From contig RFGF01000121.1 in NCBI GenBank assembly GCA_003695915.1, positions 1-35,646 on the forward strand: a stretch of 35,646 nt of DNA, read 5' to 3'. Origin of the DNA: Nitrospirota bacterium (GTDB taxonomy: Bacteria; Nitrospirota; Nitrospiria; Nitrospirales; UBA8639). Below, in pieces: positions 19,719 to 32,779 of the stretch. The notes under the pieces are model-generated. The model was not told the DNA's origin, made no database searches, and saw only the letters and a list, made by a program, of their open reading frames with translations. Both the position numbers and the translations under genes were made by a program. Numbering within the stretch: position 1 is the stretch's first letter; each line of letters begins with the position of its first letter.

Positions 19719-21944
19719 TCAATCGGTCAGAGGGCTGCGATGATTGTTCCGCAACGACATGGCGCGCCGTTCCCGGTGCACAGCACGAAGCAATCGAGCG
19801 ACGACGGGATCCTTCATCCATTGCTCCAGCGGTCGCTCGAGCTTGAGCTGCCACGACGGATACGCCGCAACGGGAATTCCCGGAAAATTTGGGGCCTCAC
19901 GTTCACCGACGAGATCTTCGAGAGTCACAATGACCAACCGAGAAGGTGTCCGAGCCACATAACGATAGAGAGCTTCGCACAAGTCATCCGGACATATCGA
20001 CGGAACCGCATCGAGAGCATAACCGGGCGGCAGCAGACCTGTTCGATGGAGCGCCTCGAGCAGCGCGCGACGTTCGCGAGCTCGCTGCGCACGAGCGTCT
20101 CGAAGTGCACGGGCAGTGGGATACAGGCCCAATCGCGCTTTAATCTCGATGTCTCGTCCGTCCCAGAACCCGCGAATCGTGGGAAGATCATGGGTCGTCA
20201 CCGCCACGAGTGCCTGATCAGGAAAACGAGATGGCCGTCGAACCCTTCCGCTGGGCGTGTGTTCGAAGAGCAGCACGCGGTAGGAGAGCATACCTCTTTG
20301 CCTCAACCGTCTTCGTATCTCAGACGTTACCGTTCCCAAGTCCTCCCCGACGACCATGACCCGAGCCCGCATGCTTTCCAGTGCCACGATGGCCAACAAT
20401 TCTTCGGCCGGATATCGAACGTAGACACCATCGGCATTCGAAGCCTGATCGGGAATCCAAAACAATCGAAACAGGCCCATGACATGATCCAGACGAAGCA
20501 CCCCGCCATATCGCATGGTGCGTCGAATCGTTTCGATAAACAACTCGTACCCATGGGCACGCAGTTGTCGAGGATTGAAAGGAACGAGACCCCAGTTTTG
20601 GCCCTGGAGGTTGAAGGCATCGGGAGGGGCGCCGATCGACATGCCGTGAGCCAGCTGGCTTTGAAACATCCAGGCATCTGCACCGCCAGGATGAATGCCG
20701 ATCGGCAAATCGTGATAGAGCTTCAATCCGACTCCGGCTCGCTGGGCCGCCTGATCCGCAACACCAAGCTGTGTGTCGCACAGCCATTGCAGGTATTGGT
20801 GAAATTGAACCTCTTTGGCGTATGCAGCACAGAACGCATCCAACATGGGCGCATTCGGCGTCCGGTACTCGGGTGGCCAGCAAGACCAGGGAGTACCATC
20901 AAAACGGTCCATCAGCGCTTGAAAAACCGCGAAGCGCTGCAATACGGGGCCGCCATGCTTCACGAATCGTCGAAAGGCGCGTGCACGCGCCGTGCGCTGA
21001 TCGAGATGCCGGATACAAAACTCGTTGTAGAGCGGTTCCAAGACTTGCCGCTTGATCGACCGGACGGCGGCATAATCGACGGTGTCGCGTTCGCGCAAGG
21101 ACGCCAAGGCATGACGAAGCGGAGACCGAATGACACGACGACGGATTCGTTCTGAGCGCTGAAACTCCGGAATAGCCGTGATGTCTAAATACATCGGATC
21201 GAGAAACAAGCGACTGGATGGAGAATAAGGACTGATCACGCCCGGCATCCCGGCACACAACGGATTTACCCCGACCGTATCCGCGCGATGCTCTCCCGCC
21301 CACTGGATGACGCGTCGCAGATCGGAAAAATCACCGCATCCCCAATTGGTCGCGGATCGCAGCGTAGCCAGTTGTAATGTCATCCCCCACATACGCCGAG
21401 TGCTTCGAGGAAGATAGCACTTCGGCGGAGGCGCAATGACGAGTGCGCGTCCATCGATTGTGCGGTCGCTCGTGGAGGCACGGATATGCAGTTGATAGTA
21501 GCCTGGCGGAGCACAAGCAGGAAACGGCAGCACCACACGTCCGTAACGCTGACCGTTGACCATCTTGACATCCTGGATGCGACACGAGCGCCCACGATGG
21601 TGAAACTGGCGAATGTCACCGGCATCGTTTTGCACCGTTCCTTCAATGACCAGGCGATCCAGCCCTATCTCGTCAAGAGGAAGCGACAGCGTAAGAGACT
21701 GTATCGAGGAGGAATAGACGATCACGGGCTCGACGACTCTTCGCCACTCTTGGACCAGCACTTCGGCCAGCGCCTTGCGCACGTCATTGACCGTCGCACT
21801 TGTTACGCCGAGAGATTCCAACACCGCACGCAGCGTATGGGCGGGGACCGCTCGTTTACGATGGAGCCCGTCACGATACTCGATCAGAAGACCGAAACGT
21901 CGGGCCAACGCTCGGAGAAGCATTTCAAAGGCTGGATCGGTCAC
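19719..21944 (-). CDS. malQ: 4-alpha-glucanotransferase (amylomaltase), GH77
   Basis: This cytosolic enzyme transfers alpha-1,4-glucan segments between maltodextrins. Its 741 residues fit the long MalQ type with an N-terminal extra domain (about residues 1-170). The catalytic barrel shows WGMTLQLATLRSATNWGCGD near 185 and GVNPLCAGMPGVISPYSPSS near 225. The nucleophile Asp lies in GVLRLDHVMGLFRLFWIP near 485, the acid/base Glu in VVGEDLGTV near 533, and the third carboxylate in VTTHDLPTIRGFWDGRD near 586. All three catalytic residues are present. The frame begins at a GTG at 21944 without a clear ribosome binding site; an ATG seven codons later is possible. With glgX 1.1 kb away it fits glycogen or maltodextrin turnover. 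A long opposite-strand frame is a shadow of this high-GC gene. Confidence 0.93.
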   Translation of the reverse strand: MTDPAFEMLLRALARRFGLLIEYRDGLHRKRAVPAHTLRAVLESLGVTSATVNDVRKALAEVLVQEWRRVVEPVIVYSSSIQSLTLSLPLDEIGLDRLVIEGTVQNDAGDIRQFHHRGRSCRIQDVKMVNGQRYGRVVLPFPACAPPGYYQLHIRASTSDRTIDGRALVIAPPPKCYLPRSTRRMWGMTLQLATLRSATNWGCGDFSDLRRVIQWAGEHRADTVGVNPLCAGMPGVISPYSPSSRLFLDPMYLDITAIPEFQRSERIRRRVIRSPLRHALASLRERDTVDYAAVRSIKRQVLEPLYNEFCIRHLDQRTARARAFRRFVKHGGPVLQRFAVFQALMDRFDGTPWSCWPPEYRTPNAPMLDAFCAAYAKEVQFHQYLQWLCDTQLGVADQAAQRAGVGLKLYHDLPIGIHPGGADAWMFQSQLAHGMSIGAPPDAFNLQGQNWGLVPFNPRQLRAHGYELFIETIRRTMRYGGVLRLDHVMGLFRLFWIPDQASNADGVYVRYPAEELLAIVALESMRARVMVVGEDLGTVTSEIRRRLRQRGMLSYRVLLFEHTPSGRVRRPSRFPDQALVAVTTHDLPTIRGFWDGRDIEIKARLGLYPTARALRDARAQRARERRALLEALHRTGLLPPGYALDAVPSICPDDLCEALYRYVARTPSRLVIVTLEDLVGEREAPNFPGIPVAAYPSWQLKLERPLEQWMKDPVVARLLRAVHRERRAMSLRNNHRSPLTD

Positions 21945-22444
21945 GAGATGATTTGGACTCGAACGTATGGAGGCCGGTCTGCCATGCTGCCAGGACTCAC
22001 AGATCGTCGACGATGTGGCTTAGTCAACGTGCGTTAAAAGCCGATCGGCGTCGAACGCGATAGGCATCGAACCACACATCGGAGTCGTTTGCCTTTCGAG
22101 TTCGTTCCTTGCCTTGAGCATAGCATACCTGAGAGTTCTGCCAAGTGACGGCATTCAGGTTCTCATTGCCGCTCCTATCGGCCATGCTCGGGATTCGTCA
22201 TTTCCTTATCAATAGTTTCGTCATGAGCGAGACGCGATAACCCTCTCGAGGACCCTATAATTGGACTCTTGCCTCTTGCGCTCGTTACAATGAGCTTGGT
22301 AAAGTTCTGCAGCAAAAGACGTTCGCAGCCCAAGCTCGGGTGAGTGCCGGAACAGCATGTTGAATGGATCGTTGTGCTGATTGCGCCGTGACAATCGGCG
22401 CGTATGAGGTTTCTTGATCTCTCGCATACGAAAGGAGTCGACTT
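21945..22444. other. Intergenic region between malQ and the YtxH-like gene
   Basis: About 500 bases without a supported gene. It should contain the promoters for malQ (minus) and the YtxH-like gene (plus). The short minus-strand frame at 22221-22427 has no ribosome binding site and no family character. Confidence 0.45.
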
Positions 22445-22684
22445 ATGGACAATGATTCTCGTTTGATCGTCTTTGCTGGCATTTCATTTCTTGTAGGAAT
22501 TATGGTCGGAACAGGATTGGGCTTGCTTCTTGCCCCCCAATCCGGAAGCCGAACCCGTCGCCAAATCCGAAATATGGTCGAGGATGCAGGAGAGCGTGTC
22601 AGCGAATTGGCAGAAGATGCGAAAGAAACCGTATCGGAAATGGTCGAACGCGGCAAAAAACTCGTCAGCGAGCGGATGTCTTGA
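22445..22684 (+). CDS. YtxH-domain protein
   Basis: A small protein of 79 residues: an N-terminal membrane helix (LIVFAGISFLVGIMVGTGLG) leads into LLLAPQSGSRTRRQIRNMVE, the signature of the YtxH/GvpP-like family, then a long amphipathic helix (SELAEDAKETVSEMVERGKK). Relatives are induced by general stress and starvation in several bacteria; the biochemical role is unknown. AAGGAG lies 9 bases before the ATG. It precedes tatA by 91 bases in the same orientation, perhaps by chance. Confidence 0.85.
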   Translation: MDNDSRLIVFAGISFLVGIMVGTGLGLLLAPQSGSRTRRQIRNMVEDAGERVSELAEDAKETVSEMVERGKKLVSERMS

Positions 22685-22775
22685 TCAGGCATCGTCTCTG
22701 AACTCACAGCATAATCTGGCTATGTCATGCTTTTAAGAACAAAGAGGCGACCTCACATAATCGAGGAGGTGACGT

Positions 22776-23051
22776 ATGTTCGGATCATTCGGATTTATGG
22801 AATTGCTACTGATTTTAATCATCGTGCTGATTATTTTCGGAGCAGGCAAATTGCCTCAACTCGGCGAGGGGTTAGGGAAAGCGATCAAAGGGTTTAAAAA
22901 GAGCGTCAATGAACCCGATGCTGTCGACGTCACGGCCTCATCGGCAACACCGGAGCCGACCCCGGCGCAATTGCCTCCAGCAGAATCTTCTCCGGATTCG
23001 ACGGTCGGCGCCGGTCAGCCTAGAACGGAATCTCCCCAACCGTCTGCCTAA
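22776..23051 (+). CDS. tatA: Sec-independent translocase subunit TatA
   Basis: TatA forms the pore of the twin-arginine export system, which moves folded proteins across the inner membrane. The 91-residue product has a short N-terminal segment, one membrane helix ([14 protein letters not shown]), the hinge [19 protein letters not shown] and an amphipathic helix (GFKKSV), followed by a Pro/Ser-rich acidic tail. The conserved F-G motif is present. The start has a strong GGAGG 7 bases upstream. No tatB or tatC lies in the window. TatA/E-type is favoured over TatB by the length and the GAGKLP motif. Confidence 0.92.
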
Positions 23052-23086
23052 ACGAAAGACAGCGATGAAGCGCCTTGGCCCGGTGT

Positions 23087-25231
23087 TTATCCGGACGACC
23101 CTTTGTGTGCTTCCCGAAGTTCAAGCAAAACGACTGAGCGAGGTCCCAACGCGTATTTTTGACCGCCTCGATACGTTCGTTTCTTGTCCGCCAGCTCAAA
23201 GGTATCCACGATCACCTCCCAACGCACTTCGCGCTTATGCGCCGGAAGCACAAATGGCACTTCCTCGTGATGAGCATTGAGCAGCCATAAAAACGTCTCG
23301 TCGCGGATGGGTTTGCCATTCGTGTCTTTTTCCTCGATCGCATCACCGGCAAGGCGGATGCCGATGGTGCGAAACCCTTGGTTCCATTCTTCATCGCTCA
23401 TTTCCTTCCCAAGGGCATTGAACCAGGCGAGGTCTTTCACTTCCGATCCGCGGATATGCCGGCCCTGGAAAAAGCGGCGACGCCGAAATACCGGATGCCG
23501 TTTCCTCGTGGCGATCATCTCGCGAGTGAATTCGAGCAGTTGCAATTGGGGTTTGGTGAGATTCCAGTCATACCAACTGATCTCGTTGTCTTGGCAATAG
23601 GCGTTGTTGTTGCCATTTTGCGTCCGACTGATTTCATCGCCCCCGCAGAGCATCGGCACTCCTTGCGAGAGCAAGAGCGTAGCCAGGAAATTCCGTTTTT
23701 GGCGTTCGCGGAGCCGATTGATTTCCGGATCATCTGTCGGACCCTCTACCCCACAATTCCAACTGAGATTGTCGTCGGTGCCATCGCGGTTGTCTTCCAA
23801 ATTCGCCTCGTTGTGCTTGTGGTTATAGGAGACGAGATCGTTGAGCGTAAACCCATCGTGCGCAGTGATAAAATTGATACTGGCAAATGGTTGTCGCCCG
23901 CTGGCCCCGTACAAATCGCTGCTCCCCGTCAAACGGTAGGCCACTTCCCCGAGCACCCCGCCGTCTCCTCGCCAAAATCGACGGATGGCATCTCGATACT
24001 TTCCGTTCCACTCGGCCCACCCTGGTGGAAAATTTCCGACTTGATATCCGCCCTCCCCCAAATCCCAGGGCTCAGCGATTAACTTGACCTGCGAGAGCAC
24101 TGGGTCTTGATGAATGATGTCGAAAAAGGCGCTGAGTCGATCGACATCGTGCAGTTCCCGCGCCAGGGCTGAAGCCAAATCGAAGCGAAAGCCGTCAACA
24201 TGCATCTCACAGACCCAATAGCGCAAACTATCCATGATCAATTGCAGCGCACGGGGATGTCTGACATTGAGCGTATTGCCGCATCCGGTATAGTCCATGT
24301 AATACCGAGGCTGATCGGGAACCAATCGATAATAGGAAGCATTATCGATCCCCCGGAATGACAACGTTGGCCCCAAATGATTCCCTTCCGCGGTGTGGTT
24401 ATACACGACATCCAAAATCACCTCGATGCCGGCGCTATGGAGGGTTTTTACCATCGTCTTGAATTCTTGGACCATTCGTCCGGGTTCCTGATAGGCCGAG
24501 AACCGGACATCGGGGGCGAAGAAGCCGATCGTGTTATACCCCCAATAATTGGTCAACCCCTTATCGGCCAAAAACTTATCCGTCACTGAGTGATGCACCG
24601 GCAACAACTCGACGGCCGTCACTCCCAGTTCTTGCAAATACTCGATCATCGGTGGACTGGCAAAACCGGCGTAGGTTCCGCGCAGCGGCTCCGGCACATC
24701 AGGGTGGCGTTTCGTAAAGCCTTTCACATGGACTTCATAAATCACCGTTTGCGACCACGGTGTCTGAAGCGGTCGATCGGCTCCCCATGAAAAGGCCTGC
24801 TCGATGACCACCGATTTGGGCACATTGCCGGCATTGTTACGGTCATCGTAAGAAAGATCTTCTGCCGGATCACCGATCCGGTAGCCAAACATGGCGTCCG
24901 ACCACTGCACGAGACCCGACAACGCCTTGGCGTAGGGATCGATCAAGAGCTTCGAGGGATTGAAGCGATGGCCAGCATTGGGATCATACGGCCCATGCAC
25001 ACGGTATCCGTACAACTGGCCAGGCCGTACGTCGGAAATGTAGACATGCCAAACTTGATCGGTCCGCTCTTCCAGGCGAATGCGCACGGTTTCTTTATCC
25101 TGAAGAGGATGATCGAAAAGGCACAGGTCGACAGCCGTAGCATTTTCAGAAAAAATCGCAAAATTGACGCCTTCGCCATCCCAGGTCGCCCCGAGCGGAT
25201 ACGGCCACCCCGGTCGAAGCCTCAAGGCCAT
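23087..25231 (-). CDS. glgX: Glycogen debranching enzyme GlgX (isoamylase-type, GH13)
   Basis: This cytosolic alpha-1,6-glucosidase trims branches of phosphorylase-limited glycogen. It has 714 residues with an N-terminal CBM48 domain ([20 protein letters not shown]) and a GH13 barrel. Catalytic regions: [10 protein letters not shown] near 278, nucleophile Asp in [17 protein letters not shown] near 347, acid/base Glu in [18 protein letters not shown] near 387, and the third Asp in [20 protein letters not shown] near 458. This is followed by [20 protein letters not shown], typical of GlgX/TreX. The ATG at 25231 fits the start of the CBM48 domain, with weak AAAGG before it. It converges with tatA (gap 35 bases) and works with MalQ in glycogen breakdown. 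TreX-type specificity cannot be excluded. Confidence 0.94.
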
Positions 25232-25323: not shown

Positions 25324-26805
25324 TTAACTGCGCGGCTTGGCGGGCATCGGCATGTCTGCAATCGCTTCATCCAAGTAGTGGTGCAGCAATGCGTCCTGAT
25401 CGACGGGAACGATCACGAGTTGACGCTGATCGAACGTATTGGCCCAATACAGGTAAGCCCACTCGAGGCTCGCTCCCGTTTCGACATGTAATTGACGCCC
25501 ATCGTGCTCTTGAAACGTGTGTTCTCGGTGCACAATTTTGTCGGGAAGAGCTTCCCAAATCCATTGCGCAACGGGGGTGTGATTTTCATACCACGGGAGA
25601 GGCTCTTCTGCCGTCGCTGGAACCGTACGCTGGCTCAACCATGCAATCAATTCCGCGCGATCGGAGGCTGTGCGTCTCTCCCACTGCGAGAGCAGTCGGG
25701 CAAACAAGGGGGCATCGATGGCGGCGCCGATGACGACACTTTCCACATCGTGCACATTGCTGACATAACAAAAGTGCAAAGCATTTTCCCATGTGCCGAC
25801 AGTCAACCGACAACGACCAAAACGCTGGGCATCGGCATCGACTGTCCGATGGGGAAAGAGGCGACACAAGCGCTGGCCGATCTGTCGTGCCTGCGCACCG
25901 GACACACAATATAAGCTGTCCCCTTCGCGAGGCTCCCATTGTTCGTCCCATTCCCAACGGGACGTTGGCGCATAGCTCACTTCATACAGCGGGCCATCGT
26001 CGATCAATTCGCCGAGGCTGTGGTACCGGATTAGAAAGGGTTTGGTATATAGCGACAAACCGCGAGCGCTCAGCGCCCGTTGAAGCAACACACGTCGCCC
26101 CAGATGCGTGGCTTTTTCGCAAAGCAACAGTCTTCCCTTGGCATCGAGAAGCCGACATAGGGCATCCAGACGAGTCTTGAGCCCCGTCCGCTCCTCGAGC
26201 ACGTGTTGATGATCGCAATCGGCAGCTCGATCAAAGGTCCGCCACGATCGACTTGGCATCCCTGGATCATGCTCGGCTTGGAACACGGCGTGTGTCGACA
26301 AAACGAGATCGAAGCGCAATGAATCCGGTCTCCATTCAGACAGGTCGGTCAACTCGAATCGCACATTGCGCACATGTCGTTTGCGGGCTTCTGCTGAGGC
26401 TGTAGCAATGGAAACTGGGGATCGATCGATTCCCACAAATTCGGTCTCCGGGAAGAGCGACGCATAATAAATGGTCAAGATTCCGACGCCGCATCCAACA
26501 TCCAATACGCGACATGCTGGCGCGATCCGGTCAGCCATCGTCGAACCAACCGTCATATAATAATCGTAATGCTGGCTGTGCAACGCTGGAAGAATCTGTG
26601 GGTGTGCGGCAAGGTCGTAAAAGGCTCGTTCGGCCTGAATGGATTCGCCTCGCTCTTGGCGCAATCGATCCAGTCTCTGCCGCTCATGCGCAGGAATCTG
26701 TTCGCGCTGCCATTGTTCGTACGCCGCGGCATCCGGGAATTGGCGGAGTCCCCACGACGCTAAATACTGTGCGAGCCTTGCCTGGTCGTTATGATGGGTT
26801 GGCAT
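25324..26805 (-). CDS. Class I SAM-dependent methyltransferase with a long C-terminal extension
   Basis: A protein of 493 residues. The Rossmann methyltransferase core spans roughly residues 85-250: motif I is RVLDVGCGVGILTIYYAS (glycine-rich SAM-binding loop), then TEFVGIDRSPVSIATASAEA with the acidic ribose-binding residue, and VRFELTDLSEW. The N-terminal 90 residues are helical and charged. The C-terminal about 240 residues (from GPLYEVSYAPTSRWEWDEQW onward) carry no known motif and may form a second domain. The substrate is unknown. No ribosome binding site is obvious before the ATG at 26805. It lies between the ProA-like gene and glgX on the same strand, with no functional link visible. 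Confidence 0.75.
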   Translation of the reverse strand: MPTHHNDQARLAQYLASWGLRQFPDAAAYEQWQREQIPAHERQRLDRLRQERGESIQAERAFYDLAAHPQILPALHSQHYDYYMTVGSTMADRIAPACRVLDVGCGVGILTIYYASLFPETEFVGIDRSPVSIATASAEARKRHVRNVRFELTDLSEWRPDSLRFDLVLSTHAVFQAEHDPGMPSRSWRTFDRAADCDHQHVLEERTGLKTRLDALCRLLDAKGRLLLCEKATHLGRRVLLQRALSARGLSLYTKPFLIRYHSLGELIDDGPLYEVSYAPTSRWEWDEQWEPREGDSLYCVSGAQARQIGQRLCRLFPHRTVDADAQRFGRCRLTVGTWENALHFCYVSNVHDVESVVIGAAIDAPLFARLLSQWERRTASDRAELIAWLSQRTVPATAEEPLPWYENHTPVAQWIWEALPDKIVHREHTFQEHDGRQLHVETGASLEWAYLYWANTFDQRQLVIVPVDQDALLHHYLDEAIADMPMPAKPRS

Positions 26806-26910: not shown

Positions 26911-28266
26911 TCAAAACTTCGGAGATAACATCATGGCATCGTGGTATGTTTGAGGGATGGGATGAGGTTGCCGAAGTTGACCGGTTCCAAGAGCGACGAT
27001 CTTTTGACAGGTGAGCGCGTGCAGCGTCAAGGGACCACGGGCGTGAAAGCGGGAACTGTTTATGCCGACTTGCGGGCCCAACTCGAGCGATTCGCCGCCA
27101 TGAAGCCTGGTGGACGCATTGACAAACACCGCGCCAGCGTCCACCTCGTGAATAAATCGCATAGCGGTCTCATAATCTCTCGTGACGATGGCGTCCGTAT
27201 GGCCGGGTCCGTATTGGGCAATATGATCGAGCGCTTCATCGAGATCGCGGACGATTTTGATGCACAACGTCAGTGACTGAAATTTTTGCTCCCAATCCTG
27301 ATCGGAAGCTGGCTTCACCCCGAGATGGCCCGTCATTTCCATGACTCCCATCATCGAAACCGTTTTAGGGCAGCCGCGAACGTCGACCTTGAACTCTTCC
27401 AATAGGCGCCGAACAAGGCCGGGCAGAACATGTCGCGCCACGGCTTGATGAACCAGTAACGTGTCGATGGCATTGGAGGCAGCCGGATCCTGCACTTTGG
27501 CATTGACTACCAGCGTTTGGGCCAGAGGAATTTCGATATCGCGGTCGATATACATGTGGGACACACCCCCGTCATCGCCGATAATCGGCACTCTGGCCTG
27601 TTCTCGCACGCCGCGCCGAAGGGCAGGCTTCCCTTTGGCAATCGCCGCATCGATATATTTCGTGAGACGGACCGCTTCGAGCGCGGCCTCTGGCTCCTGA
27701 CGATCTAACAAGATCGTCGCGTCCTCGGGATATCCGATGCGTTGCAACGCCTCCCGTATACACTGCGCCACCTTAGCATTCGTGTTCATCCATTCCGATC
27801 CACCTCGAAAGAGGCATAGATTTCCCGTTTTGATGCAGGTCGAAAATGCCTGGACGGCCATGTGGGGTCCCAGGTCCGTAATCACGGCAATGACTCCCAA
27901 GGGACAGCGCATCCACCCGACTTGCAAACCATCGGGTGTCGTCCAAGACTGCGTGATGGCTCCGATTGGATCAGGCGATTCGATCAAACGTTGGATGTCA
28001 TCGTTCATCTCGTCGATCATGTCTTCGGTCAGGCGGACACGTTCGAGCGCCAGCCGATAATCTTGGGGATCGAGATCTTTGGGAATGTTGCCGACGTCGC
28101 GTTGATTGGCTTCCACGATCGCATCACGTTGTTCCTGCAGTTGCTTTTGGATTTGAAGAAGCGCCTCGATCCGTTTTTGCCCTGGCAGACGTATCGCGAC
28201 CCGCGCAGCCTGTTTGAGTCGTTTTCCCAGTTGTTCGACATAGAGTTTAGGTGGCAATGCGACCAT
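26911..28266 (-). CDS. ProA-like protein (glutamate-5-semialdehyde dehydrogenase homologue) lacking the catalytic Cys
   Basis: The protein of 451 residues aligns along its whole length with ProA, the ALDH-superfamily enzyme that makes glutamate semialdehyde for proline. The match includes LFRGGSEWMNTNAK, IDTLLVHQAVARHVLPGLV, GHTDAIVTRDYETAMRFIHE and FVNASTRLHGG, SRFHARGPLTLHALT. The position of the nucleophilic Cys (Cys255 in Thermotoga ProA, within xCNAxETLLV) is Ser264 here (codon TCC, plus-strand 27475-27477) in DPAASNAIDTLLV. The usual YESRPN motif reads ITDLGPHMAV. Catalysis as a normal dehydrogenase is therefore doubtful. No proB is next to it. It may be a paralogue with a new role; a genuine proA elsewhere in the genome would support that. 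Confidence 0.85.
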   Translation of the reverse strand: MVALPPKLYVEQLGKRLKQAARVAIRLPGQKRIEALLQIQKQLQEQRDAIVEANQRDVGNIPKDLDPQDYRLALERVRLTEDMIDEMNDDIQRLIESPDPIGAITQSWTTPDGLQVGWMRCPLGVIAVITDLGPHMAVQAFSTCIKTGNLCLFRGGSEWMNTNAKVAQCIREALQRIGYPEDATILLDRQEPEAALEAVRLTKYIDAAIAKGKPALRRGVREQARVPIIGDDGGVSHMYIDRDIEIPLAQTLVVNAKVQDPAASNAIDTLLVHQAVARHVLPGLVRRLLEEFKVDVRGCPKTVSMMGVMEMTGHLGVKPASDQDWEQKFQSLTLCIKIVRDLDEALDHIAQYGPGHTDAIVTRDYETAMRFIHEVDAGAVFVNASTRLHGGESLELGPQVGINSSRFHARGPLTLHALTCQKIVALGTGQLRQPHPIPQTYHDAMMLSPKF

Positions 28267-28778
28267 CGCTTCAGGACTCCTTTAACGCTTGCAGTTGCAT
28301 GGACAATCCACCGAGTATCCGGATTGACGAATCATAACAATCCTGTTGCTAAATTTCATTTCTCAATGCAAACGCGGCGCACTATATCCGCTAGCATACC
28401 ACGAGTCAAAATTTTTTGATGCGATCGACACATCGTAGGGGCAACACTCTTGTGAAAAGTCTTGCGCGATAGTTTCGACGCTTCTCGAGGAGGTTTTTAG
28501 CGCCGTTTCGTGCCACTCATTATGCACGTGTCTTCCTCTATCTCCTGATCAATCCAGGCATTTTACTTGCTAAAATTTTATGATTATGCTAGCTTTCCAG
28601 GGTTCTGATTCTAGAGAAATCAGATCGGCAATAAGGCGTACAATGTGTGTGGCAAAAACGAAGCGTATGGATTTATGCAAAGAGCAACAACATGGAGACG
28701 ACTCGATTATGCAACAGATGACTTTGAAAGTTGGTTTACTTGAATTTCCGAGAACGAAGGGAGGTGAGGGAGGACGGT
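28267..28778. other. Leader/intergenic region upstream of rpsB
   Basis: About 510 bases separate the divergent ProA-like and rpsB genes. It is locally AT-rich at 28340-28420 and 28560-28600. The small frame at 28580-28792 has no ribosome binding site and runs into rpsB out of phase, so it is not called. The length leaves room for an rpsB leader with autoregulatory structure, but no known S2-binding fold was recognised. Confidence 0.4.
28562..28590 (+). promoter_or_regulatory. Candidate sigma-70 type promoter for rpsB
   Basis: TTTACT (28562-28567) and TATGCT (28585-28590) are separated by 17 bases in an AT-rich stretch about 190 bases before the rpsB start. Each hexamer matches the consensus at four of six positions. 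This is a weak, pattern-based call. Confidence 0.3.
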
Positions 28779-29576
28779 ATGATCACGATTAAGTCCCTGT
28801 TGGAAGCTGGAGTCCACTTCGGGCATCAAACCAATCGGTGGAACCCCAAAATGAAACCCTATATTTTTGGGGAACGGAACGGTATATATATTATCGACCT
28901 CGAAAAGACGCTCGAGTGCTTTCACGCCGCATACAACTTTGTTCGTGATACGGTAGCGGCTGGAGAATCCGTGTGGTTCGTGGGCACCAAGCGCCAAGCG
29001 ATGGACATTGTGGAAGAAGAAGCCAAACGCTGCAATATGCCTTATGTCAATCAGCGATGGCTCGGTGGCATGTTGACCAATTTTCAAACTTTGAAAAAAA
29101 GTATCGCTCTATTAAAGAAACTGGAAGCTGCGCAAACTGATGGGACGTATGAACGGCTCAAAAAGAAAGAAATCGTGCGATTGGAGAAGAAGCGAGCGCG
29201 TTTGGAAAAGTATCTGAGCGGAATCAAAGGGGTTACCGATTTGCCCGGCTGCGTGTATATCGTCGATACGCGGGTCCAACACATCGCGGTCCAAGAAGCC
29301 AACCGAATGGGCATTCCCATTGTGGCCATTGTGGATACTAACTGCGATCCAACGGGGATTGACTATCCCATCCCCGGGAACGACGATGCCATCCGCTCTA
29401 TCAAACTGTTTACCTCCCATATCGCCGATGCATGTTTGGAAGGATTGGAACTTCGACACAAGCGCGAACACGCTGAGGATTCGGAAGAAAGATTGATGGC
29501 GGAGATGTTATCGGCGCGCGCCACCACCGAAGAAGCCGCGAGCGTAGAAAGCCTACCATCCCCGCAACCATCCTGA
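28779..29576 (+). CDS. rpsB: 30S ribosomal protein S2
   Basis: S2 sits on the small-subunit head-body junction and recruits bS1. The 265-residue product starts [20 protein letters not shown] and carries the uS2 signatures [20 protein letters not shown] near residue 18, [36 protein letters not shown] near 92, and [20 protein letters not shown] near 185. The tail is acidic and Ala/Ser-rich. The frame is open upstream, but ATG 28779 is chosen because it fits the family N-terminus and follows GGGAGGTGAGGGAGG. It heads the conserved rpsB-tsf-pyrH-frr block. Confidence 0.97.
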
Positions 29577-29593
29577 TTGTCGTACGACGATCA
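29574..29593 (+). promoter_or_regulatory. Hairpin at the rpsB stop codon
   Basis: TGATTGTC-GTAC-GACGATCA forms an 8-bp stem (one T-G wobble) with a 4-base loop and includes the rpsB TGA. No T-run follows, so it is not a standard terminator. It may limit transcript decay or modulate readthrough into tsf, or be chance. Confidence 0.4.
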
Positions 29594-29652
29594 GTTTCAA
29601 CAGCCTCATCGTCTTGACGTTCGTTTGAAAATAAAAAGGGAGAATGATTCGC

Positions 29653-30249
29653 ATGGCCAGCACAAGCGCCTTAGTGAAAGAACTTCGCATGAAAACCGGG
29701 GCCGGCATTTTAGATTGTCAAAAAGCGCTCCAGGAAACCGGAAATGACGTGGAAAAAGCGATCGACTTGTTGCGGCAGAAGGGATTAGCCGCGGCGCAAA
29801 AACGATCCGGACGCGAAACCAAAGAGGGCGTCATCGGCGCCTATGTTCATGCCGGAAACAAAATCGGCGTGCTCATCGAAGTGAACTGCGAAACCGACTT
29901 CGTCGCACGCAATGAAGAATTTCAAGCCTTGGTCAAAGAGTTGACCCTCCAAATCGCCGCGGCGAATCCAACCTATGTTAAACGCGAAGATGTCCCCCCT
30001 GAGGTCATCGAGCGGGAAAAAGCGATTTATTTAGCCCAGGTCAAGGAGATGGGAAAGCCCGAAGCGGCATGGGAGAAGATCGTTGAAGGAAAGTTGGAAA
30101 AGTTCTTCCAAGAGCATTGCCTGCTTGAACAAACCTACATTAAAGATCCAAATATGACCATCAAGGATCTGTTAACCCGATACATTGCCAAACTCGGAGA
30201 AAATATTACCATTAGCCGATTTACTCGTTATCAATTGGGACAAGAATGA
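29653..30249 (+). CDS. tsf: Elongation factor Ts
   Basis: EF-Ts is the nucleotide exchange factor that recycles EF-Tu. The product of 198 residues is the short form. The UBA-like N-domain ([40 protein letters not shown]) contains the signature L-R-x-x-T-G-x-G, then the core has [20 protein letters not shown] and [10 protein letters not shown], the conserved TDFVAR motif that contacts EF-Tu. The C-terminus has [19 protein letters not shown]. The first in-frame ATG is at 29644 (MIRMAST); the second at 29653 ([12 protein letters not shown]) matches the family start. GGGAG lies before the first, so either is possible. Its end overlaps pyrH by 4 bases (ATGA). Confidence 0.96.
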
Positions 30250-30998
30250 GCGCTCCGGTTTACCGGCGTATTCTTCTCAAAATCAGCGGGGAAATGCTTG
30301 CTGGCGAACAAGGATACGGCATCCACCCGACTGTCTTGGACAACTTGGCGAACGAAATTTGCGATGTTGTCGCGATGAACGTTCAGATTGCCATCGTGAT
30401 CGGTGGTGGGAACATTTTCCGTGGCTTGGCTGCCAGTGCTTCGGGGATGGAACGCGCATCGGCCGATTACATGGGGATGTTGGCAACAATGTTGAACGCG
30501 CTCGCCCTTCAAAATATCTTGGAGGCCAAAAATATTGCCACCCGCGTCCTGTCGGCTATCGAAATGCGTCAATTGGCGGAAAGCTATATTCGTCGACGAG
30601 CGATCCGGCATTTGGAAAAAGGTCGCGTGGTCATCTTCGGGGCCGGCACTGGCAATCCTTACTTTACCACTGATACCGCAGCTGCTTTGCGGGCCATGGA
30701 AATCGGCGCCGAAGTCATCTTAAAGGGGACCAAAGTCGATGGAATTTACGACGCCGATCCTCGCCTCCATCCCACGGCCAAACGCTATGATGAATTATCA
30801 TTCTTAACCGTCATCAACAAACAATTGAAAGTCATGGATGCGACAGCGGTCACGTTATGCATGGACAATCAGCTGCCATTGATTGTCTTTAACCTCACGA
30901 TTCCCGGAAATATCGTTCGTATTCTTCATGGGGAACGTGTGGGAACCATCGTTACGCCAGACGTTCCCGTGCAAGCAGGAGCGACATCGAATGGCTGA
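30246..30998 (+). CDS. pyrH: Uridylate kinase (UMP kinase)
   Basis: Phosphorylates UMP to UDP in pyrimidine nucleotide synthesis. The 250-residue protein of the amino-acid-kinase fold shows [20 protein letters not shown] at the start, [20 protein letters not shown] near 48, [20 protein letters not shown] near 78, [20 protein letters not shown] near 128, [20 protein letters not shown] near 160 and [20 protein letters not shown] near 200. All are PyrH hallmarks. The ATG overlaps the tsf stop (ATGA), and frr begins inside its last codons, so the three genes are translationally coupled. Confidence 0.97.
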
Positions 30999-31548
30999 TC
31001 CGACCTTACAAAAAGTTGAGCAGCGTATGCAGGGAGCCCTGGAACATCTTCGACGAGAAGTGGCAAGTCTGCGAACGGGCCGGGCATCGCTTTCGTTGCT
31101 GGACCATATCATGGTGCCGTATTACGATACGCCGACCCCGTTAAAGCAATTAGCAACCCTGTCGATTCCTGAAAGCCGATTGATCACTATCCAACCTTGG
31201 GATCCCTCGTTGATCAAAGCCATCGAAAAAGCCATTGCCTCGTCCGACCTCGGGCTCACTCCATCCAACGACGGGAAGGTGATTCGTTTGCCTATTCCGC
31301 CCTTGAGCGAAGAACGCCGAAAAGAACTGGTCAAAGTGTGCAAAAAATACGGTGAAGAAGCGAAAATCCAGATTCGCGGATTTCGGCGAGAAGGTAACGA
31401 AGAACTCAAACGGCGTCAAAAAGAGGGGTCGTTAACAGAGGACGAACTTAAACGCTTGGAACAAGAAAATCAAAAACTGACCGATAAATATATCCAGAAA
31501 GTCGACGAGTTGATCAAGAAAAAGGAGGAAGAAATTCTCGCTATCTAA
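30991..31548 (+). CDS. frr: Ribosome recycling factor
   Basis: RRF splits post-termination ribosomes together with EF-G. The product of 185 residues is the usual size. Visible motifs: [13 protein letters not shown]-type sequence ([20 protein letters not shown] near 19), [20 protein letters not shown] near 62, [20 protein letters not shown] near 90 with the conserved P-P-L-T/S-E-E-R-R, and a C-terminal helix ending [16 protein letters not shown]. The frame is open from 30883, but ATG 30991 is the family start; it overlaps the pyrH end by 8 bases. Confidence 0.97.
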
Positions 31549-31558
31549 AGGATCATTC

Positions 31559-32779
31559 GTGACCGACTCTTGCACTCCCTGCTCAGCCTCCCCTCACTTT
31601 CCTCTTGTCGCCACCATCAGTCTATCGGCCCTGGCCCATAATGTCGCGGTGGTTCGACAGCTTCTTTCTCCTTCCTGCAAAATTCTCGCGGTCATCAAGG
31701 CCGATGCGTACGGTCATGGCGCACAGAACATCGCCGAGGCGCTTGTCCGACAATCGATTCCCTATTTCGGCGTGGCGACGGTTTACGAGGGAGTGGCTCT
31801 CCGACAACACGGCATTCGACAGCCCATCCTGATCATGGGAGGCCTGCTGCCAGAGTTGATCCCTGATCTTCTCCGTTTTCAACTGATTCCGGTCATTGGC
31901 AATTGGGAAACCGCACTCGCCCTCTCCCATGACCTCAAGCAACGCGCTGGAACCGCTTACCCGGTACATTTGAAAATCGACACCGGCATGAGACGGCTCG
32001 GTTTTTCTCCCGATGACGTCCTGGCATTGCTGGATCATCCGGACTTGTCTCGTATCTTCCAATTTCAAGGACTGATGACTCATCTGGCTGATGCAGATAA
32101 TCTCGACCCGACGTTTACTCAACAGCAACTGCAATCTTTTGAGAACCTGATCCAGCGCATCCGGAAACGCGGTGTCTCGATTCCTCTGATCCATGCGGCG
32201 AACAGTACAGCCATCTTTCGATACCCCGAGGCTCACCTCGACCTCGTCCGCCCTGGTCTTGCCTTATACGGATACCATCTCGCCCCCCTTCACGACCATC
32301 AGGTTTCGCTGAAGCCGATCATGACGGTTTCGACAAGGATCGTGCATCTTCGAACCGTTTCGCCTGGTGAATCTCTTGGATACAACGGCGCATTTCGCAC
32401 CATGCGTCGTTCGCGCATTGCTGTTTTGCCTATCGGCTATTATCATGGGCTTGCTCGGCGGCTTTCTAACCGTGGCCAAGTGCTTGTGCGGGGACAGCGG
32501 GTGCCTATTGTAGGAAAAATTTGCATGGACATGACGATGATCGACGTGACGGATGTCCCAAGCGTCACACTTGGCGATCCGGTCGTGCTCATCGGTCAGC
32601 AGAGCCAGGGACACATCACGGCGATGGACATTGCCGAATGGCAAGAAACGGTTCCCTATGAAGTGCTCTGTGCGATCGGAAGCAAGGCCTCGCGTGTCTA
32701 TGAGTCTACTCCGACTCTTGAGCTGCATCCTCGTGAAGCCCACGCACCGGCGATGGCGATTCCGCTTTCTTCTGGTTGA
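31559..32779 (+). CDS. alr: Alanine racemase
   Basis: This PLP-dependent enzyme supplies D-alanine for peptidoglycan. The 406-residue product starts at GTG 31559 with AAGGA 9 bases upstream. The PLP-lysine lies in ILAVIKADAYGHGAQNIAEA near residue 42. Other family features are VHLKIDTGMRRLGFSPDDV near 137, the phosphate-binding AANSTAIFRYPEAHLDLVRP near 210, GESLGYNGAFRTMRRSRIAV with the second catalytic Tyr near 270, and GKICMDMTMIDVTD near 318. It sits 10 bases after frr and is likely cotranscribed. A biosynthetic alr and a catabolic dadX cannot be distinguished by sequence, but the context favours alr. Confidence 0.95.
   Translation: MTDSCTPCSASPHFPLVATISLSALAHNVAVVRQLLSPSCKILAVIKADAYGHGAQNIAEALVRQSIPYFGVATVYEGVALRQHGIRQPILIMGGLLPELIPDLLRFQLIPVIGNWETALALSHDLKQRAGTAYPVHLKIDTGMRRLGFSPDDVLALLDHPDLSRIFQFQGLMTHLADADNLDPTFTQQQLQSFENLIQRIRKRGVSIPLIHAANSTAIFRYPEAHLDLVRPGLALYGYHLAPLHDHQVSLKPIMTVSTRIVHLRTVSPGESLGYNGAFRTMRRSRIAVLPIGYYHGLARRLSNRGQVLVRGQRVPIVGKICMDMTMIDVTDVPSVTLGDPVVLIGQQSQGHITAMDIAEWQETVPYEVLCAIGSKASRVYESTPTLELHPREAHAPAMAIPLSSG

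Follow-up and report, generated by a model that had tools for sequence, protein, structure and literature searches.

The reverse-strand gene at positions 26,911 to 28,266 of the window (the whole 35,646-nucleotide stretch analysed here) encodes a ProA paralogue, for which we use the working label ProA2, whose catalytic residues have been replaced throughout a conserved clade and whose gene is always accompanied by that of a class I SAM-dependent methyltransferase. Its strict link to this methyltransferase, together with lost catalysis and newly gained invariant features, leads us to favour the view, which we hold at about an even chance, that ProA2 is a pseudoenzyme acting as a non-catalytic partner of the downstream methyltransferase.

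Results

The original prediction, made from the letters of this DNA, held the protein to be a full-length relative of ProA, and this is borne out by profile matches and by its nearest solved relatives, which are ProA/GPR proteins. ProA2 scores 392.8 bits against NF001221/PRK00197 (cut-off 289), homologous to the ProA family over its full length, and 317.1 bits against TIGR00407 (proA), narrowly below the cut-off of 317.45; it is 42% identical to the ProA of its own genome. The NF001221 cut-off is an equivalog cut-off, here exceeded by a protein without the catalytic Cys, so automatic annotation will probably give every member of the clade the wrong name, glutamate-5-semialdehyde dehydrogenase. 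GPR proteins also rank first in a Foldseek search with the structure model of ProA2, a model of moderate quality (pLDDT 79, pTM 0.61, with residues 386–411 and the end of the tail poorly resolved) that is too coarse to place the tail or to show what fills the old active site. The features discussed below are collected in Table 1.

Table 1. Positions of ProA2, its altered and added segments, and neighbouring features in the window.
Feature	Position	Strand	Remarks
ProA2, full-length ProA paralogue without catalytic Cys	26911..28266	-	451 aa, ATG start, no internal stop
Ser264 codon TCC at the ProA nucleophile Cys position	27475..27477	-	alignment with ProA structures
ITDLGPHM (residues 129-136) replacing IYESRPNV	27859..27882	-	alignment; RPN Arg and Asn gone
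GDDGG (residues 230-234) replacing KHDKG	27565..27579	-	alignment; Lys gone in 97/97 orthologues
Paralogue-specific insertion GVMEMTGH (residues 307-314)	27325..27348	-	alignment
Paralogue-specific C-terminal tail (residues 434-451), PHPIPQTYHDAMMLSPKF	26914..26967	-	absent from canonical ProA
Class I SAM-dependent methyltransferase	25324..26805	-	493 aa, directly downstream of ProA2; adjacent in 130/130 loci
Sigma-70-like promoter match TTGACT-17-TATAGT	28381..28409	-	10/12, upstream of ProA2; consensus match only

Alignment to ProA structures and to canonical Nitrospirota ProA agrees with the prediction in placing Ser264 at the catalytic Cys position (DPAASNAID in ProA2 versus RPSTCNTVE in the structures) and in finding ITDLGPHM at residues 129–136 instead of a YESRPN-type motif. 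Canonical ProA copies have C at the nucleophile column without exception (20/20), and the RPN Arg and Asn, the HDKG Lys, T263 and E268 are equally invariant among these 20. Each of C264, R133 and K230 is replaced in all 97 distinct ProA2 orthologues, with G, C or S in the HDKG Lys column; T263 and E268 are replaced throughout the clade, and N135 is lost in nearly all members (a single Asn in a 44-row alignment), its column holding mostly L, S, H, K, A, P or F, while P134 is retained. We take the RPN Asn as the counterpart of the oxyanion Asn in other ALDHs, and the HDKG region as that of the ALDH general-base motif. The losses are concentrated: of the 153 columns that do not vary in canonical ProA, ProA2 has lost 28, comprising 7 of the 14 within the two catalytic motif windows versus 21 of the 139 outside them (Fisher p = 0.005), and the former pocket positions 132, 133, 135, 231 and 264 vary among unlike residues within the ProA2 clade.

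The “Ser clade” whose conservation the prediction proposed to check does not exist, the nucleophile column of the 97 orthologues drifting among S (41), A (34), T (14), P (7) and G (1). A role for serine as a replacement nucleophile is thereby ruled out, and Ser264 is one among several small residues remaining after the loss of Cys. Since all 97 lack Cys there, the Ser codon cannot be put down to a sequencing error. With the RPN Arg and Asn and the HDKG Lys also gone, changing Ser264 to Cys is not expected to rescue ProA activity by itself. In GPR chemistry, Cys attacks the acyl phosphate to form a thioacyl enzyme and is required (PMC8963878). The alignments thus strongly support loss of dehydrogenase function in ProA2, and we infer that the protein is enzymatically inactive. 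Loss of catalytic residues across a conserved clade under selection characterises an ALDH-fold pseudoenzyme, and this is the pattern found here.

Other parts of the protein have been kept or gained. The NASTR motif (residues 383–387) is preserved, with N383, S385 and R387 present in 97/97 orthologues; R154 and N265 are also retained, leaving the fold and the ligand side partly kept, and the substrate-side residues K257 and Q259 are invariant. Specific to ProA2 are W159 (constant in 96/97) and R217 and D268 (in 97/97). The C-terminal tail follows the consensus PHP(V/I)PxxYxDAxM, with P434, H435, P436, P438, Y441, D443, A444 and M446 invariant in all 97 and lacking from canonical ProA. ProA2 is under purifying selection, its median dN/dS being 0.10 (58 pairs) versus 0.14 for canonical ProA (14 pairs; Nei-Gojobori method). 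The earlier argument that an intact frame speaks against random decay therefore holds, both from the intact frames and from this ratio, and ProA2 appears to be a protein with a different, constrained function.

The same genome carries the second proA and the proB that the prediction had proposed to look for: a canonical proA (C37:866-2110, 595 bits), proB (451 bits) and proC (290 bits). ProA2 is therefore not the only ProA of its genome, whereas a sole ProA with normal activity in a proline prototroph had been named as what would refute the prediction. Since the complete proline route (ProB, ProA, ProC) is kept, ProA2 is free of proline duty. The idea of a paralogue without dehydrogenase function is strengthened by the lost dehydrogenase residues and the separate canonical proA; the protein may have the binding or regulatory role that was proposed with it. 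In a set of fetched loci (L034-L053), proB adjoins proA in families f2 and f4, which have no ProA2, and no proB lies beside proA within the fetched flanks in the ProA2-bearing families f1 and f3.

In the genomes sampled, ProA2 is confined to two families. Among 60 related genomes, orthologues of the same length and 45–59% identity were found in f1 (the window's family) and f3, and none in f2 and f4 of the same order. Across 197 genomes of the phylum, every f1 and f3 genome has one ProA2 match (680–794 bits) and nearly all also carry a canonical ProA (about 460–520 bits); outside these families only the canonical type was present. Every sampled f1 or f3 genome that is at least 90% complete has both ProA2 and the methyltransferase, genomes of 1.7–1.8 Mb included, and no other sampled Nitrospirota genome has ProA2 or a close homologue of the methyltransferase. 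A single-protein scan of named genomes gave no match; scanning 84,980 named species genomes by profile, with two C-terminal patterns, did give Nitrospirota loci, yielding 159 relatives, of which 80 were kept, all titled Nitrospirota MAGs (many of them Nitrospira sp.) except one labelled Nitrospinota (L081). By comparison with a published account (PMC12342949), f1 is presumably family UBA8639 (lineage IV) and f3 Nitrospiraceae. We found no report of the ProA2 paralogue in the open-access literature.

In a tree of 69 rows, which leaves out the mis-framed row L175, ProA2 forms a single clade (support 100/100) whose sister is the canonical ProA of f1 and f3 (98/95), the two being joined at 100/97. 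A single duplication of proA inside Nitrospirales, in an ancestor shared by f1 and f3, explains why ProA2 is monophyletic and has the ProA of its own families as sister; a horizontal origin is unsupported by the tree. Nor is a tie to nitrite oxidation as such supported, since f2 genomes have NxrA-like ORFs and lack ProA2, in agreement with the report that family NS-4, which f2 presumably represents, has nxrAB (PMC12342949). The window's own genome contains relatives of the DMSO-reductase type II alpha subunit (G000:C104:1043-2863 and G000:C12:19048-20517; frames of 1149–1184 aa), which are possibly NxrA.

The methyltransferase gene lies next to ProA2 on the same strand in 130/130 loci, representing the 97 distinct ProA2 proteins. 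Its close homologues occur in exactly the f1 and f3 genomes among 148 searched, the remaining genomes giving just weak matches to the SAM core. The SAM motif (D-x-GCG-x-G) is present with D102, G104, C105, G106 and G108 invariant, among 67 invariant columns in the alignment, and PF13847 matches at 8e-16; none of the listed curated NCBIfam models reaches its cut-off. A confident AlphaFold model (pLDDT 90) matches class I cores, and the structure search recovered the common SAM core only (TM ≤0.32 over the query). A sequence search of the PDB likewise matched the SAM core and gave no close solved relative; protein lysine methyltransferases 1 and 2 (5dnk, 5doo), which share this class I core, are among the best matches, but they cover about 90 of 490 positions and leave unmatched the N-terminal part and the C-terminal domain (YENHxPSAQ...ANTFDQRQLV, or YENH...ANTFDQRQLV in brief). 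This domain is undescribed; it is a diverged tandem pair in f1 (hhalign probability 96.6%) and single in most f3 members.

The surroundings of the pair differ between the families. In f1, rpsB-tsf-pyrH lie upstream, the pair being divergent from these genes, a conserved ORF and alr (28731-32779 of the window, + strand) in an order kept family-wide; the flanking genes in f3 are others, and their translations were read as a transporter, a threonine-aldolase-like gene and, in some loci, sugar-phosphate dehydrogenases. A ribosomal role suggested by the rpsB-tsf neighbourhood is unsupported because this context is limited to f1. After the pair, the window holds glgX and malQ (glycogen debranching and 4-alpha-glucanotransferase; 19719-25231, - strand), an ordinary neighbourhood that was not seen in the wide flanks of ProA2 loci L054-L073 (tblastn, 1e-8). 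No terminator-like site was found between ProA2 and the methyltransferase gene in the window, and the arrangement is consistent with a single transcript for both. Since only one duplication was involved, the pair may stay together partly through shared descent, though its surroundings have been reshuffled between the families.

Discussion

On the reading that we favour, proA was duplicated in an ancestor shared by two nitrite-oxidising families (presumably Nitrospiraceae and UBA8639), and one copy lost gamma-glutamyl-phosphate reductase chemistry and was retained as a pseudoenzyme. Its folded body, together with the new tail and insertion, would then serve as a scaffold, an activator or a ligand-sensing subunit of the methyltransferase, with which it is presumably in physical contact; the ProA body may sense a metabolite, for example a glutamyl compound or NADP(H). 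Adjacency also fits with a shared pathway without contact, or with modification of ProA2 by the methyltransferase. In its strongest form, which we put forward tentatively and consider somewhat less than an even prospect, the stripped ProA would be indispensable as a subunit of a methyltransferase system that is itself undescribed and universal in the two main nitrite-oxidising families of Nitrospirales; the former ProA pocket would sense a metabolite, to which the system couples methylation.

Alternatively, ProA2 might be active through Cys-independent chemistry, such as a binding/lyase or isomerase step on a glutamyl-type compound whose product the methyltransferase then methylates. The invariance of the substrate-side NASTR motif, N265, R154 and K257/Q259, the new invariant polar residues R217 and D268, and an operon-like linkage strict enough to suit a two-step pathway would all accommodate such an enzyme; however, drift at pocket positions 132, 133, 135, 231 and 264 would be unusual for a new active site located there, and no more pathway genes are linked in both families, so that we regard this as unlikely, though it is the foremost of the alternatives. 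A dead subunit within ProA/ProB oligomers, tuning proline synthesis through feedback or channelling while the methyltransferase played a separate or modifying role, is a more doubtful proposition. It would draw on the paralogy of ProA2 and ProA in the tree, on the position of proA away from proB in the ProA2-bearing families and next to it in f2 and f4, which lack ProA2, and on the oligomeric nature of GPR and its coupling to glutamate kinase in P5CS (PMC8963878), but neither proB nor proA adjoins ProA2 in the fetched loci, the methyltransferase is its sole constant neighbour, and the tail is conserved beyond the apparent need of a mere dimerisation copy.

The adjacency and co-occurrence of the two genes could also mean that ProA2 is a protein substrate of the methyltransferase, whose best PDB sequence match is a protein lysine methyltransferase (5doo) over the SAM-binding core only. 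That core is common to all class I enzymes, and a dedicated, inactive substrate of 451 aa would be an odd arrangement; we consider this improbable. The chance that ProA2 is after all a functional ProA, or else a pseudogene, is very slight: the whole-protein HMM score does exceed the ProA equivalog cut-off, but a canonical ProA resides in the same genome and the Cys, Arg and Lys are lost in all orthologues and the Asn in nearly all, while dN/dS of 0.10 and intact frames exclude decay.

Nitrospira-type bacteria, among them the comammox organisms, are major oxidisers of nitrite. That every near-complete sampled genome of both families has this two-gene unit, found nowhere else in the phylum, points to a core function that has gone unrecognised, and strong selection along with a constant methyltransferase neighbour suggests a dead metabolic enzyme with a new job. 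If the non-catalytic partner reading is right, ProA2 would be a clear bacterial pseudoenzyme of the ALDH superfamily with a probable partner in hand, which makes its role directly testable.

Compared with known systems, ProA2 shares descent over its full length with ProA (EC 1.2.1.41; PDB 1o20, 4ghk, 8zok) and has the NASTR and RGG-type motifs in common with it, but lacks the nucleophile Cys, the RPN Arg and Asn and the HDKG Lys, and it differs further in the extra insertion near residues 307–314, the 18-residue C-terminal tail and another gene neighbour. A ProA by descent that fails the defining catalytic feature should not be named gamma-glutamyl phosphate reductase. The GPR domain of P5CS/ALDH18A1 belongs to the same domain family; in contrast to ProA2, P5CS is a fusion with glutamate kinase and has kept its Cys, which is C598 in Drosophila. 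On present evidence ProA2 most resembles ALDH-fold pseudoenzymes such as ALDH16A1, a mammalian aldehyde dehydrogenase pseudoenzyme that has likewise kept the ALDH fold, lost its catalytic residues and is thought to act via protein contacts (PMC10650815), although ALDH16A1 belongs to another ALDH subfamily of separate origin, whereas ProA2 comes from bacteria and its gene is paired with that of a methyltransferase.
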